From Chloroflexota bacterium (lineage in GTDB: Bacteria; Chloroflexota; Anaerolineae; Aggregatilineales; J027), in contig JABFGB010000003.1 of NCBI GenBank assembly GCA_013112715.1, positions 1 to 64,000 of the forward strand: 64,000 bases of DNA, in the 5' to 3' direction. Positions 51,860 to 59,410 of the stretch are shown one piece after another. A program made the position numbers and the translations under genes. Under the pieces are notes generated by a model, which did not search any database, was not told where the DNA came from, and saw only the letters and a list, made by a program, of their open reading frames with translations. Positions within the stretch are counted from its first letter, which is position 1. Each line of letters begins with the position of its first letter.

Positions 51860-52519
51860 ATGTCGTAATTCTCTGGCACCGTCTGGCGTTTGGAGTGGCG
51901 ATAATTGGCAATATCATGGCGGATAGCATAGGTAGCGGCTTCAACCCGATTGGTCACATTCAGCTTATCTAAAATCCCGCCCATGTGATTCCGCACCGTC
52001 TTATCACTCAACACCAATGCGGCGGCAATTTCGGCGTTGTTGTGCCCAAATGCAGCACGTCCAATTCGCGCTCGGTCAAGGCCGCAAAGGGATCAGGTGT
52101 ATTCTCACCCTTCGGCGCATCATGGCGAGTACCCGGCGGGTGATGCTAGGATCAAGCAAAGCCGCCCCCTGTCGAACCTCGTCAAATACCTGTACCAATT
52201 CACCCGTTCCTGCCTGTTTCAATACATAGCCCACTGCCCCAGCACAGATGGCATCGGCAAATGAGGTCAGCATCACGACTTGGATATGATTCCAGCGTTC
52301 GGTGATGGTTCGACAGGCGTCAATCCCACTACTGCCGGGGGGCATCCGAATATCCATAATCACCACATGCGGCTGATGGGTTTCGCATAACCGGATGGCC
52401 TCATCTGCCGACCCGACCTCAGCCACAATCTGGGTATCGGGCACTTGTTCCAACACCATCCGCAGTCCCATCCGCACCACTTCATGATCGTCTGCCAGCA
52501 TCACTTTTAGTATGCTCAT
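51856..52519 (-). pseudogene. LuxR-family response regulator, decayed
   Basis: The first 120 codons give a receiver (LADDHEVVRMG, IMDIRMPPG) with a small in-frame deletion in LTSFADAICAGAVGYVLK. The frame then shifts near 52115, where the sequence should continue GENTPDPFAALTERELDVLHL, and again near 52050, after which HNNAEIAAALVLSDKTVRNHMGGILDKLNV completes the helix-turn-helix. At least two frameshifts, so not functional. Its stop is convergent with the previous gene. Confidence 0.8.
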
Positions 52520-53218: not shown

Positions 53219-53554
53219 TTAATCATGGGTAGGCGAGGACGCGGCTGGCAGTGGAAAGAACATCACCTCCCACTGTAGACTGTTGGGATGCCGTAGCCAG
53301 ACAGTTGCCCCAAAAGATTGCAGGTTGATTGTGACTTGATACCCCTGTCGCTGTATCTGTGCTGCCCACTCTAATACCGCCTCACTACTCAGATGGGCCG
53401 AATCCGGCACGACTATCAGCGGTGTTGAAGGTTGATTAGTGTCGTCTAACCGTGCAGCCATCGCTTGTTGAATCAAGGCCCAAGCCAGCACCGCGACGCC
53501 CAAAAATAGGACTGGTGTAAAGCGCTCAAATAATTGGCTTTTAGATCGGTTCAT
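53219..53554 (-). CDS. Small membrane-anchored hypothetical protein
   Basis: The 111-residue protein (MNRSKSQLFERFTPVLFLGVAVLAWALIQQAMA) has one N-terminal transmembrane segment and an outside region with LIVVPDSAHLSSEAVLEWAAQIQRQGYQV. A GGAGGG lies nine bases before the ATG at 53552-53554. Unrecognised. It follows the BlaR1-like gene after a terminator, so it may be expressed separately. Confidence 0.5.
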   Translation of the reverse strand: MNRSKSQLFERFTPVLFLGVAVLAWALIQQAMAARLDDTNQPSTPLIVVPDSAHLSSEAVLEWAAQIQRQGYQVTINLQSFGATVWLRHPNSLQWEVMFFPLPAASSPTHD

Positions 53555-53629: not shown

Positions 53630-56600
53630 CTAATTTGAACCATACATATAGTTGAATGGCTCTTTACTCATGATGTCTGGGTCAGCCCCTACCGCACAAT
53701 CGAGCATGGCGTCAAAGTAGGCTTGCCAATCGCCCTCGGCACTGCTCTCGGTCAATTCCGGGATACCCGCGATACATGCCATATAGCTGTTAATGCGGTC
53801 TTGGGCTTGGGTCATGACCGTCACTAGATCAGCATTCTCATTGAGATAGGCGGTAAACGCCTCATTGATCCAGACTCCCGCCGCCGTTTCAACTTGGGCA
53901 TTGCTGGCCCAATAGATAGGGATGATGAGGGTATTTGGTGATTCGAGGCGGGTATAAAAATCACGCCACGTTTGGGCAACCGTAGCCCCATAAAACGCTT
54001 CGGTACTAGGACTATCGAGTACCGACTTTTGGGCAGGCACACCGATGACCAGACCCGGCTGTTGCGCTACAAAACGCAGCCAACGATAACAGGCTTCAGC
54101 GTTTTGCGTAGTGGTCGAAACGTAGCCCGATGTAACGCGATAAGCTATCGGGGTGAAGTCCTGACCTGTGGGGTAAAGCATAGGGCGATACGGCACGCCT
54201 GTCGCGTCAGTGACGGGTTCAAGGAGTAGATAGTCTAGGCCATAGGGATTTTGCACTCGGATGGGGGCATCCCCAGAGGATGGGACTCCGTCCGTGTCGT
54301 CCTCAATGTAGCCTTGTTTGACCAAATCCAACACATGCTGCATAGCGTCGAGGTTCTGTTGATTGGTCAGGTCAATCGTGGCAGGGGTCTTGCGATAGTC
54401 AATCGGTAGGCCTCCATGTGCGGCGATTAACATCATCAAATAGAGTCGCTCGTTGAAGCTCGTCGTCATACCAGAATCAGCTAGCCCTTGATCTTTGACA
54501 GCCCGAATGGCCTCTTCAAAAGTGGTAATGTCCCAATCCCCTGTGGGCAAATTGACCCCGGCCTGCTGCATGAAGAAGGTATCCACCCACATCAGTTCGG
54601 GCTGAATGGCTAAGGGATAGGCGGCGGTTTGGTCGTTAAAACGTGTAGCATCCCATATCCCCGGTGCAAAGTTATCGGCATCAAAAGCTGGGTCAGCCGC
54701 CATCAAAGGCGCAAGATCAAGTGGCGGAAGATCAAAAAGTGCTGCATCGGAGACATAACAATCCACTTGCTGTCCCTCTTGGACGTTATAACCCGTTAAC
54801 AGGTCAACGCTAAATACATCCGGCTCGGCCTCGGCAAATTCTACGGCGGCCCGTTCCCATTGCTCCATATTTCGGACGCTGTCGGCGTTATTGAGTAGAT
54901 GAAATTGCAGGGCAACTTGGCCGGGCGGGACTTCAACGGGCGGCGCTTCTGGCGGAATGGAGAGGACAAGGTTGGGCCGCAGATTTTCAGCCAAGACGAG
55001 GGCTTCTGTCGCTCGACTGCTCATCTCGCCGAGTGCAGTGACGAGATCGCCCCCATTTTGGGTACTGGTGAATAGTGCCTGCACCAAGAAACCACTCATG
55101 GTGCGGTTTGCCAGCGGCATTGCATTCTCCGCAGCCATCAAATCCGCAGCTTTTTGTGCTTCAGGCTTGCCAAAATAAAAGGATGGATTGCCCCCTTTGT
55201 CCAAGACTGCCGACATCGCTGCGATGGGGGTGTTGTCGAGATAGGTGTTAATTAAGCTGAGATGCTTGGCTAATTCATAGGCCAATTCGGGTGCAGTCGT
55301 GCCAGCACTGACCGCGAAGCCGGGAACATTGACCAGACCTCCTACTCCATTAGGCAGCAAGGCCGCCGACCAATCTCCATCATCATTGGCATTTCGGTAA
55401 TCCCCCTGTAGCGCCCATGATCCGCCAATTTGCAGGGGGCTGACCATCTCGTAGCTTGGGACAATGCTCGCTGCGCCTTCCATTGCTAATGCCACCCATG
55501 CTTCGGCGAGTGCCAAAAGGTCAGTGTCCCACGCAAAACTGGTGGAATCGCCGAGGGTCAGCATATTGTCCAAAGGTCGGCCCAACAGTGCCTGAAACAA
55601 AAATGTCGGATCGCCGGACAAACCCGGTGTGGTAACGCCATTGTCACTTGTAGTAGTCAAGGTATGGGCCGCTGTTACATATTGGTCCATCGTCCAATTT
55701 TCGTCAGGATACGTGAGTCCCGCTGCGTCAAAGGCAGGCCGATTGTAGCTGACAAACACAGGATCAAGCATTGTCGGTAGTGCCCATGTGCCACCATCCC
55801 ACTGATAGGATGCCCACGCTGCCGGGAAATAGCGATCACTGTAATCATCGGGATCAGCGGCGATAGCTGGGGCAAGATCAAGAAACATACCAGCCCGTGT
55901 CGCAATTGGGTTTAGATATTCATTTGTCCAGATGAACACCACATCGGCAGTATCCGCAAAATCGGTCATGTCGTTTAGATATGCTTCAGGGTCGGAAGGG
56001 ACTGCATTTTCGAGCCAACCCGAATCGTCACGACGCAGTACGACCTTCACGCCCGGATGCGCCGCTTCGAATTCGTCGAGACTTAATCCAGTGCGGTTGA
56101 AGGAATTCAGAAAGTCTTCCGGCAGGCCGACGGTTAAAGTAATGGCATCATCCGCATAGGCTCGGTTGGGTTGGGTCATCGGTGTATTTTGCCCCCCGGC
56201 AATCGTAGCGACGGGGGTAATTAGACTTAATACCAATAGGAGCCCCAACGCTTTTTGCCAGCGCGAAGCACTTCGTCGTCGCTGCTTGTCCAAAATGGCA
56301 TGGACGCGGCTAGGTAGATTACCAATTTGTGTCATTTGTGCTAGACCGGGAGTAACCAGTGATTTGTGACGCAGACTACCCAGAAAGTTTTGGGCAATTG
56401 CCACCAGATGCGCGGCATAATCTGGCCCTGTCGTCCCCAATTGCAGTACGCGGTCATCACAGGCGTTTTCACTTTCGATTGCCAGACGGCGGGTAGCGAT
56501 CCATGCCAATGGATTAAACCAATGCAGGGCCACTACAAACAGTGATAGCCAGCCCAACAGCGCATCCCACCGCGCTATATGGATGCTTTCATGCAACAGT

Positions 56601-57331
56601 ACGACTCTACGGCGCTTGGCATCCCAAGTAACGGCGTCCGCAGGCAGCAAAATAATCGGGCGTACCACTCCAATGGTCATAGGAATACTGATTGCTGGTG
56701 TCATCATCAACCGGACAGGCCGACGAATAGCGAGAGTTTGACGAATTTCAGCGGCGAGTTCGGTAATGTCATGTGGCACTTCTAGGGCATAGGTATGGGT
56801 CGTTACCCGTCGAAATTTTCCATAGTGGCGAATCCCCATCCACAGAATACCGAAAGCCCCGATTGCCCATACTGTCAGCAGCAGCGTTGCAAAGTTCGGC
56901 CACACGATTCGAGTATCCGGCTGCTTATCGGTATTTGATTGGGCTGCAAGCGTCGGCGTTATGGTTGCACCAGACGAATGGCTGATCGTCGTCACCTGTG
57001 GATCGGCATCAGTTTGATTGTTGGTAGCCAGAAGTAAAGGATTGACCGTTGGACGCATAAAAGGATTAACCGAAGTACCCTTACTGGTACCCCGATAAGG
57101 GGCGTCTGTTGTTGATGGTTTAGTTGGCAGTTCCACGTTCCAGCGTGGCGCGATCATCACAAAAGCAGGCATCAACAACGCTGCACACATCGCCAATACC
57201 CATACCCAATGACGCAGCGCCGCCGAAGAACGACGCAGCAGCAGCGAGACAACCCCAGCGAGCATTAAGACCAACGTGACGCGCAGGGCGATCATACCCG
57301 TAAATTCCAAGAGTTCGGTGTTGGTATTCAT
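53630..57331 (-). CDS. BlaR1-type M56 protease fused to two solute-binding domains
   Basis: The 1233-residue protein is about twice the length of BlaR1 (~590). Residues 1-380 give the BlaR1/MecR1 membrane core: TMs at ~11-33, 42-62, 146-168 and 361-379, and the gluzincin motif HESIH (247-251) with ESENACDD. After the last TM, in place of the penicillin-binding sensor, come two regions like ABC-type extracellular solute-binding proteins: ~397-790 (ITLTVGLPEDFLNSF, DDSGWLEN, GGTWALPTMLDPVFVSYNR, YPDENWTMDQYVTAA) and ~800-1233 (LQFHLLNNADS, AAYPLAIQPELMWVDTFF, WDITTFEEAI, VTSGYVSTTTQNAEACYRWLRF). It is paired with a BlaI-type repressor, whose stop precedes it by two bases. I infer that ligand binding outside the cell activates the protease and relieves repression. 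Confidence 0.88.
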   Translation of the reverse strand: MNTNTELLEFTGMIALRVTLVLMLAGVVSLLLRRSSAALRHWVWVLAMCAALLMPAFVMIAPRWNVELPTKPSTTDAPYRGTSKGTSVNPFMRPTVNPLLLATNNQTDADPQVTTISHSSGATITPTLAAQSNTDKQPDTRIVWPNFATLLLTVWAIGAFGILWMGIRHYGKFRRVTTHTYALEVPHDITELAAEIRQTLAIRRPVRLMMTPAISIPMTIGVVRPIILLPADAVTWDAKRRRVVLLHESIHIARWDALLGWLSLFVVALHWFNPLAWIATRRLAIESENACDDRVLQLGTTGPDYAAHLVAIAQNFLGSLRHKSLVTPGLAQMTQIGNLPSRVHAILDKQRRRSASRWQKALGLLLVLSLITPVATIAGGQNTPMTQPNRAYADDAITLTVGLPEDFLNSFNRTGLSLDEFEAAHPGVKVVLRRDDSGWLENAVPSDPEAYLNDMTDFADTADVVFIWTNEYLNPIATRAGMFLDLAPAIAADPDDYSDRYFPAAWASYQWDGGTWALPTMLDPVFVSYNRPAFDAAGLTYPDENWTMDQYVTAAHTLTTTSDNGVTTPGLSGDPTFLFQALLGRPLDNMLTLGDSTSFAWDTDLLALAEAWVALAMEGAASIVPSYEMVSPLQIGGSWALQGDYRNANDDGDWSAALLPNGVGGLVNVPGFAVSAGTTAPELAYELAKHLSLINTYLDNTPIAAMSAVLDKGGNPSFYFGKPEAQKAADLMAAENAMPLANRTMSGFLVQALFTSTQNGGDLVTALGEMSSRATEALVLAENLRPNLVLSIPPEAPPVEVPPGQVALQFHLLNNADSVRNMEQWERAAVEFAEAEPDVFSVDLLTGYNVQEGQQVDCYVSDAALFDLPPLDLAPLMAADPAFDADNFAPGIWDATRFNDQTAAYPLAIQPELMWVDTFFMQQAGVNLPTGDWDITTFEEAIRAVKDQGLADSGMTTSFNERLYLMMLIAAHGGLPIDYRKTPATIDLTNQQNLDAMQHVLDLVKQGYIEDDTDGVPSSGDAPIRVQNPYGLDYLLLEPVTDATGVPYRPMLYPTGQDFTPIAYRVTSGYVSTTTQNAEACYRWLRFVAQQPGLVIGVPAQKSVLDSPSTEAFYGATVAQTWRDFYTRLESPNTLIIPIYWASNAQVETAAGVWINEAFTAYLNENADLVTVMTQAQDRINSYMACIAGIPELTESSAEGDWQAYFDAMLDCAVGADPDIMSKEPFNYMYGSN

Positions 57332-57333
57332 GG

Positions 57334-57741
57334 TTATGCCTCATCATTTTCTTGATTTTCTTGGTTTTCTTGACGGGCTGCCTCAATCAATTGGGCCAGT
57401 GCATCCAATTCATCTTTGGAGAGGTCTTCGGTAGAAAGCAGTGCTGACACCGCATTTGGAACCGAGCCACCGAAAAACGTTTTGATAAGATGACGCAGCG
57501 CAAAACGGCGCACCTTTTCCGGCTCGACAGTGGGTGCATAGAGATAGCGACCCCCTTCCTCACGGTGCGTCAAATGTCCCTTTTCTTCCAAGATTCGCAG
57601 CATCACCCGGATACTGGAATTACCCGGGGGATCAGGTAGTCGCTGTTGAATATCAGCAGCAGTGGCCTCTCCGATCTCAAGGATGATGTCCATAATTTGG
57701 CGTTCGCGCCGAGAAAGCTGGTCATACATATTGTCAGCCAT
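57334..57741 (-). CDS. BlaI/MecI/CopY-family transcriptional repressor
   Basis: The 135-residue winged-helix protein (YDQLSRRERQIMDIILEIGE, then ATAADIQQRLP, SSIRVMLRILEEKGHLTHREEGGRYLY) is a BlaI/MecI-type repressor with a C-terminal dimerisation helix and an acidic tail. It is normally inactivated by its partner BlaR1-type protease, which follows two bases later. Palindromic sites upstream are its likely operators. Confidence 0.92.
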   Translation of the reverse strand: MADNMYDQLSRRERQIMDIILEIGEATAADIQQRLPDPPGNSSIRVMLRILEEKGHLTHREEGGRYLYAPTVEPEKVRRFALRHLIKTFFGGSVPNAVSALLSTEDLSKDELDALAQLIEAARQENQENQENDEA

Positions 57742-57816
57742 GCGATTTTCCTCACAATGGGAGCGGGCAGGGTGATTTATGTACAGTCATCCTGCCCACC
57801 CGATTTGGAAACGTTC

Positions 57817-57905
57817 TGCGAAATTCTTCGCGCGAATTTTTTCGCATCAACAGCGTAACCTATAATTATACTGCCTGTCAAGAGGTGTGTGCGAAATTTT
57901 TCGCA
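57817..57905. promoter_or_regulatory. Three palindromic operators and promoter for the BlaI-BlaR1-like pair
   Basis: The perfect dyad TGCGAAATTTTTCGCA (57890-57905) has arms TGCGAAA/TTTCGCA. Two related, overlapping dyads lie at 57817-57832 (TGCGAAATTCTTCGCG) and 57831-57846 (CGCGAATTTTTTCGCA). Between them, TATAATTATA (57861-57870) can serve as a -10 on either strand. This is the arrangement expected for a self-repressing BlaI promoter, and it may also affect the divergent gene. Confidence 0.7.
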
Positions 57906-57971: not shown

Positions 57972-57989
57972 TTGTGAAAATTGTCACAA
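57972..57989 (+). promoter_or_regulatory. Rex-like operator upstream of ndh
   Basis: TTGTGAAAATTGTCACAA is an 18-base dyad with one mismatch against the Rex consensus TTGTGAA-N4-TTCACAA. Rex is a NADH/NAD+-sensing repressor, and type II NADH dehydrogenase is a classic Rex target. The site lies 83 bases before the ndh start codon. Confidence 0.65.
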
Positions 57990-58072: not shown

Positions 58073-59410
58073 ATGAGTATGCAGATGCAGCATCGCGTTG
58101 TCATTATTGGTGGAGGATTTGGAGGACTCAGTGCCGCCAAAAAGCTGAAAAAAACACCCACCCATATTACCCTGATTGACCGCCGCAATTTCCACCTCTT
58201 CCAGCCGCTCCTCTATCAAGTCGCTACTGGGGCACTCTCACCCGCCGATATTTCCTCACCTCTGCGTGGGATTTTGAAGAAGGCCGAAAACGTCCAAGTC
58301 CTCATGGCCGAGGTTACGGATATTGACCCACAGACTCGTGAAGTCGTGATGGGTGAAAAACGGGTCACTTACGATTCCCTGATTATCGCTGCCGGGGTGC
58401 GCCATCATTATTTTGGCAACGACGAGTGGGAAGCCCATGCGCCGGGACTAAAAACGATTGAAGATGCCACCCACATTCGCAGCCGCATTCTTTCTGCCTT
58501 CGAGCGTGCCGAACTGGAATCCGATGCGCGGAAACGCCAAGCATTGCTAACCTTTGTTGTTGTGGGGGCTGGCCCCACTGGGGTGGAAATGGCCGGGGCG
58601 ATTAGCGAAATTGCCCATCTAACCCTCAAAGACAATTTCCGCAACATCAACCCCGCCGACACACGTATCTTGTTGGTCGAAGGGGTCGAAAATGTTCTGC
58701 CGAGCTTTCCCATGCCTTTATCCAATAAGGCGCTTAATACTCTGCAAAACCATCATATTGAAGTGCGAACCCAGACCTTTGTCACTGATATTCAGCCGGG
58801 GCGCGTCACACTGAAGCATGAAGATCAGGTCGAAACCCTAGAAGCTGAGACGGTACTATGGGCGGCGGGGGTATTGGCCTCGCCATTGGGCAAGCTCATA
58901 GCCGAAAAAACCGGAGCGCCCCTTGACCGATTTGGACGAGTGATGGTGCAGCCAGACCTAACTATACTGGGGCATCCCGAAATTTTTGTGATTGGCGACC
59001 TTGCCCATTTGGAAATGGATGGCAAACTGCTACCGGGGGTAGCGCAAGTCGCCATTCAGGGTGGGGCGTATGCCGCAAAGGTCATCCAAAAACGCCTGCA
59101 GGGTGCGCCGATGGATAAGCCATTTCGCTACACCAATTTCGGTAACTTGGCGACCATCGGGTGGTCATCGGCGGTAGCGGATTTACCTTTTAGAATACGC
59201 CTATGGGGGTTTATAGGGTGGCTGTTCTGGGTGTTTGTCCATCTCATGAAAATGGTCGAATTCGAAAACCGGGTGGTCATTTTTGTGCAGTGGGTCTTTA
59301 ACTACTTCACGCGCAACCGCTCGGCTCGCCTGATTACGAATGAATGGGCTGTTGACTTAGCAGCTACGGAAGGGCAAAGTCCTGCCGAATGGGTTGCCGA
59401 GCCAGACTAA
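58073..59410 (+). CDS. ndh: Type II NADH dehydrogenase (NDH-2)
   Basis: The 445-residue protein has an FAD-binding GGGFGGLSAAKKL motif at residues 13-25, the second nucleotide fold VVVGAGPTGVEMAGAISE for NADH, and the FVIGDLAH segment binding FAD. A C-terminal amphipathic region (RLWGFIGWLFWVFVHLMKMVEF) anchors it to the membrane. It oxidises NADH and reduces quinone without pumping protons. GGGGG lies eight bases before the ATG. It is monocistronic, with a terminator at 59570. Confidence 0.94.
   Translation: MSMQMQHRVVIIGGGFGGLSAAKKLKKTPTHITLIDRRNFHLFQPLLYQVATGALSPADISSPLRGILKKAENVQVLMAEVTDIDPQTREVVMGEKRVTYDSLIIAAGVRHHYFGNDEWEAHAPGLKTIEDATHIRSRILSAFERAELESDARKRQALLTFVVVGAGPTGVEMAGAISEIAHLTLKDNFRNINPADTRILLVEGVENVLPSFPMPLSNKALNTLQNHHIEVRTQTFVTDIQPGRVTLKHEDQVETLEAETVLWAAGVLASPLGKLIAEKTGAPLDRFGRVMVQPDLTILGHPEIFVIGDLAHLEMDGKLLPGVAQVAIQGGAYAAKVIQKRLQGAPMDKPFRYTNFGNLATIGWSSAVADLPFRIRLWGFIGWLFWVFVHLMKMVEFENRVVIFVQWVFNYFTRNRSARLITNEWAVDLAATEGQSPAEWVAEPD

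Follow-up and report, generated by a model that had tools for sequence, protein, structure and literature searches.

What might a BlaR1-type regulatory protease sense when it ends in two solute-binding domains? This question is raised by a gene on the minus strand of the window, the 64,000-nucleotide stretch analyzed here, taken from the draft genome (5.55 Mb, contig C3) of a Chloroflexota bacterium. The gene (53630-57331) is a single frame of 1233 residues with an ATG start and no internal stop, in which a BlaR1-type M56 protease (residues 1-385, 56177-57331) precedes a homologous pair of family-1 solute-binding domains, SBP1 (residues 391-800, 54932-56161) and SBP2 (residues 801-1233, 53633-54931). 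The original prediction had read an uninterrupted frame joining a BlaR1 core to two solute-binding regions at this place, and the frame, the Pfam matches, the fold and the profile homology all bear this reading out. On the same strand, a third gene of the presumed operon, orf111 (53219-53554, 111 aa), encodes one N-terminal transmembrane helix and an extracellular tail; it belongs to no known family, gave no match in a Pfam scan, and adjoins the fusion within the genus only (four congeners).

The protease half is well defined. Pfam recognizes Peptidase_M56 at residues 15-310 (E 3e-34), and the zinc site consists of H247ESIH251 and E288, with a histidine-to-glutamate spacing of 41 residues equal to that of BlaR1; H247, E248, H251, and E288 are invariant in all 31 aligned sequences. 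Hydropathy and the positive-inside rule predict TM1, TM2, an extracellular loop (approximately residues 65-141), TM3, a cytosolic gluzincin domain, and TM4 (approximately 357-381), and the predicted structure places helices at residues 3-31, 37-60, 147-178, and 357-376. Compared with Staphylococcus aureus BlaR1 (8exs), the model of this half aligns over 252 residues with a Z score of 20.4 and an rmsd of 5.2. Its fold and zinc site, its BlaR1 topology and the adjacent BlaI-type gene place the fusion among the M56 regulatory proteases, and its blaR1_generic score is 90.6 bits, below the cut-off of 400. A penicillin-binding (class D-like) sensor is absent: residues 391-1233 match SBP_bac_1 and sugar-binding SBPs only.

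Both sensor domains can be assigned to the family-1 solute-binding proteins, with their two-lobed fold, by several routes. SBP1 matches SBP_bac_1 at residues 419-691 (E 1.3e-12) and the sugar-binding protein 4qrz by phmmer (E 1.6e-7). No Pfam match above threshold was obtained for SBP2; its sequence matches MalE-type and other sugar-binding proteins, and its profile is homologous to that of SBP1 (hhalign E 7e-51 over 356 columns). The original prediction had called for a structural comparison with substrate-binding families, and the model of SBP2 (residues ~799-1196) indeed folds like sugar-binding proteins (VIA Z ~20-22), its neighbors including MalE3, UgpB, YesO, and other binding proteins (top Z 21.7). 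Since both structure models are only modest in confidence (mean pLDDT 62.6 and 55.4), with a good M56 part and a poor SBP1 in the model of residues 1-805, and with SBP1 also modeling poorly on its own, we make no claim about pocket details.

The fusion is conserved. Full-length counterparts occur in three congeners, which are 89-92% identical, and in two distant families of the order, at 34 and 32% identity, so that the listing of fusions in other genomes suggested by the original prediction yields five further genomes. In total, six genomes from three families carry the fusion, always with blaI immediately upstream (6/6), and the named records include Anaerolineae bacterium DTUCFX7, Chloroflexi bacterium CFX5, and Anaerolineae bacterium MGR_bin408. 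Among the 154 genomes of the order that were searched, M56 is rare, with 15 matches in 13 genomes, and the seven strong BlaR1-type matches correspond to the six fusions and one sensor-less copy adjoining the fusion of genome G001. In this genome, the second, sensor-less M56 protein (L054:10786-11796) is encoded after the fusion, and blaI has a divergent neighbor, an OmpR-type response regulator gene (L054:5817-6524), the dyads lying between the two in a shared operator region. No fusion beyond those known from the order was detected in 396 genomes of the class, some of the order included, and no other M56 frame longer than 641 aa in 400 genomes of the phylum. Furthermore, dN/dS ratios among congeners indicate that every part is under purifying selection, with values of about 0.07-0.15 for the protease core, 0.075-0.091 for SBP1, about 0.10-0.15 for SBP2, and 0.24-0.49 for orf111; the repressor is the most conserved part (0.015-0.078).

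In a careful M56 tree, the protease halves of every fusion form one group (support 91/92); this tree supersedes a quick M56 tree that had split them. In the tree of the sensor modules, the G038 sensor falls among standalone proteins, and a single fusion clade is not rejected (p-AU 0.105). The trees are thus compatible with one fusion event and with two.

A BlaI-type repressor had been predicted directly before the fusion, and the 135-aa blaI-like gene (57334-57741, minus strand), which ends 2 bp upstream of the fusion gene, matches Penicillinase_R (E 9e-27) as well as the MecI and BlaI structures 1okr and 1sd4. The Phe at P1' is described as almost invariant (PMC9834060). The scissile Asn-Phe of S. 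aureus BlaI and MecI aligns with Ala100-Leu101 in the window's BlaI, and the cleavage site must therefore differ. Upstream of blaI, consensus reading predicts a minus-strand promoter (57852-57881) with TTGACA at 57876-57881, an 18-bp spacer and TACGCT at 57852-57857, the two hexamers being invariant across four species and the spacer varying. The three TGCGAAA-type dyads claimed upstream are also there. These 16-bp dyads lie in the stretch that separates blaI from the divergent ndh gene: predicted operator dyad 1, TGCGAAATTTTTCGCA (57890-57905), lies upstream of the -35 hexamer and is a perfect TGCGAAA-N2-TTTCGCA kept in congeners, and predicted dyads 2 and 3 (57817-57832 and 57831-57846, two mismatches each) overlap just past TACGCT, at the predicted transcription start, within 30 bp (57817-57846) invariant in four species. 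The chance expectation for dyads within the window is 0.45. Across the four species, the dyads are constant except for one base of the upstream dyad in congener G027, and TGCGAAA dyads are present at these promoter positions also in G001, a member of another family. In G038, TGCTAAA-N2-TTTAGCA occupies both promoter positions, and the aligned BlaI recognition helix has Thr there and Arg in both the window and G001, a single instance of what may be a matched change of repressor and operator.

A wider BlaI-controlled regulon, as originally proposed, did not emerge from genome-wide scans for the dyad. Across the six fusion-bearing genomes, an exact or one-mismatch dyad is reproducible only at the system's own promoter; elsewhere, only single one-mismatch sites occur, differing between congeners, and we rejected the operator scan as a route to a regulon. 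The visible regulon is therefore the operon itself, that is, autoregulation. The congener G024, which has neither an M56 gene nor the system, contains zero sites at up to one mismatch. One of the isolated sites, the one-mismatch operator TGAGAAAAATTTCGCA (L008:345-360, contig C45 of G000), lies about 80 bp ahead of a frame for a secreted protein and has no counterpart in congeners at one mismatch.

Sequence comparison identifies the sensor as a pre-existing tandem module (dSBP) that also exists alone. Matches to it were found in 45 of the 154 genomes of the order, most of which encode secreted ~900-aa proteins that correspond to residues ~391-1220, and both the window's own genome and G024 have such a standalone protein. 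The one in the own genome (C5:241586-244180) is 37% identical over residues 391-1220 and shares the length and the four cysteines, which in SBP2 are residues 858, 1081, 1186, and 1212 and are common to standalone relatives, but it is secreted by a signal peptide and lacks an M56 part. The standalone genes also differ from the fusion in that they often have a MacB-like exporter or a two-component system next to them. In 26 standalone neighborhoods, chosen from top hits and not randomly, 13 had a ~920-aa MacB/FtsX-like permease with an HlyD-type adaptor and an ABC ATPase, seven had a histidine kinase with an OmpR-type regulator, and two had the exporter and the kinase pair together. The permease exceeded the Pfam cut-offs for MacB_PCD and FtsX only in L091, with a weak match in the other three scanned. 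Operons that combine the ~920-aa permease, HlyD-type adaptor, and ABC ATPase with a single tandem-SBP protein or a pair of them were seen at L056, L058, L060, L061, L176, and L178, the last two additionally with a histidine kinase and regulator; such dSBP-MacB-like operons look like an undescribed export or sensing system of the order. No importer genes adjoin the fusions in the neighborhoods inspected; in two congeners, the standalone relative comes after a BmpA-like importer (named by eye) that has a binding protein of its own. A crude motif pattern for MalF/MalG-like permeases gave zero matches near standalone dSBPs and is not used as evidence. L003, considered as a pseudogene with stops inside the match, proved to be an intact ordinary SBP gene beside a LacI-type regulator. 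Tentatively, and with considerable doubt, the tandem SBP may be a shared, non-import recognition module tied to MacB-like export, to kinase-regulator pairs and to BlaR1-BlaI proteolysis, the fusion then doing in one protein the work of a two-component system and sensing the exporters' class of compound.

We consider it fairly likely that the locus encodes a BlaR1-BlaI pair whose sensor was swapped for a tandem Venus-flytrap module, with ligand-driven BlaI cleavage derepressing blaI-blaR1-orf111. More broadly, binding of a small molecule other than a beta-lactam probably makes the fusion turn on a gene set of its own; as the original prediction proposed, that molecule may be a sugar or peptide, and the two SBP copies may bind different ligands. 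In this model, the blaI-blaR1-orf111 promoter would be held repressed by BlaI dimers. Closure of one or both SBP domains, brought about by a small ligand outside the cell or by a ligand-loaded partner, would be relayed to the cytosolic protease via TM4 and the long loop between TM2 and TM3, relieving M56 inhibition so that BlaI is cleaved and the operon derepressed. The proposed output follows BlaR1 of S. aureus, a protease that signals from a sensor outside the cell and itself cuts BlaI (PMC9834060), and the input step resembles BvgS, which is controlled by tandem Venus-flytrap domains (PMC4352136). No effector gene turned up, which counts against the model together with the changed scissile residues of BlaI and the modest confidence of the structure models; as effector, a product of the operon, a gene whose operator is weaker or a protein that partners with the SBP module could serve. 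The claim is firm at the level of sequence and plausible at that of function, where we infer every step.

That assembly or gene calling joined two genes is practically inconceivable: nothing favors it beyond all genomes being draft or metagenome assemblies, and we reject an assembly join because the six genomes agree. A frame break at the junction, named in advance as what would overturn the fusion, is not borne out; the identical junction recurs in all six genomes, in one case within a 2.9-Mb contig, and dN/dS is low on both sides of it. BceS reads BceAB flux, and the fusion might likewise read transporter activity if its tandem SBP, instead of sensing a free ligand, docks on an envelope machine such as a MacB-like ABC transporter. 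The permease, adaptor, and ATPase found beside dSBP in 13 of 26 neighborhoods, some of which also encode a histidine kinase along with an OmpR-type regulator, point in this direction, as does the MacB-like dSBP operon that the window's genome carries on a contig other than that of the fusion. However, that operon lacks an operator-like dyad, the fusion genes themselves are not adjacent to such a transporter and the SBP folds look complete. We regard this reading as unlikely.

It also appears quite improbable that the main target of the protease is a different substrate, or that it releases its own ectodomain, with BlaI merely keeping the fusion level constant. Such a role would agree with operators reproducible only at the system's own promoter and with the unconserved scissile residues of BlaI, but blaI is the most conserved part and lies directly upstream in 6/6 genomes, and S. 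aureus BlaR1 does cleave BlaI (PMC9834060).

The system can be compared with known ones. It shares with BlaR1/MecR1-BlaI/MecI of S. aureus and Bacillus licheniformis the M56 gluzincin HEXXH...E with 41-residue spacing, four TM helices, the extracellular TM2-TM3 loop, a C-terminal extracellular sensor, a neighboring BlaI-type repressor and promoter dyads. It differs in having two SBP domains instead of the penicillin-binding domain, a TM2-TM3 loop of ~77 residues versus 41, a TGCGAAA-N2-TTTCGCA operator and a BlaI without the scissile Asn-Phe, and no beta-lactamase or mecA-like target was seen here. M56 proteins of Planctomycetota, Verrucomicrobiota, and Acidobacteriota likewise fuse the protease core to HEAT, WD40, PDZ, or carboxypeptidase-regulatory domains, but none of 406 ORFs at the loci L093-L164 matched the SBP module. 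Two tandem Venus-flytrap or periplasmic-binding domains also form the extracytoplasmic sensor of BvgS/EvgS and CdgH (PMC4352136, PMC5431781), whose output is a kinase or a diguanylate cyclase rather than a protease; here the domains are of the SBP_bac_1 (sugar) type and C-terminal to the membrane part. No published description of a BlaR1-SBP fusion was found in the open-access literature; the BlaR1 chassis is known, and the sensor and the phyletic setting are new. If the proposal is true, the protease-repressor pair of BlaR1, known as an antibiotic sensor, would be a general transmembrane relay with exchangeable input, and BlaR1 signaling would become testable with a reversible, non-covalent ligand. 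The results also point to an undescribed tandem SBP family linked to export and signaling in uncultured Chloroflexota.

Two further features were noted around the operon. The palindrome TTGTGAAAATTGTCACAA (57972-57989), upstream of the type II NADH dehydrogenase gene (58073-59410), is kept in four congeners and resembles Rex or CRP/FNR sites, and a 147-aa response-regulator frame, apparently without a DNA-binding part, occupies positions 52076-52519 of the window.
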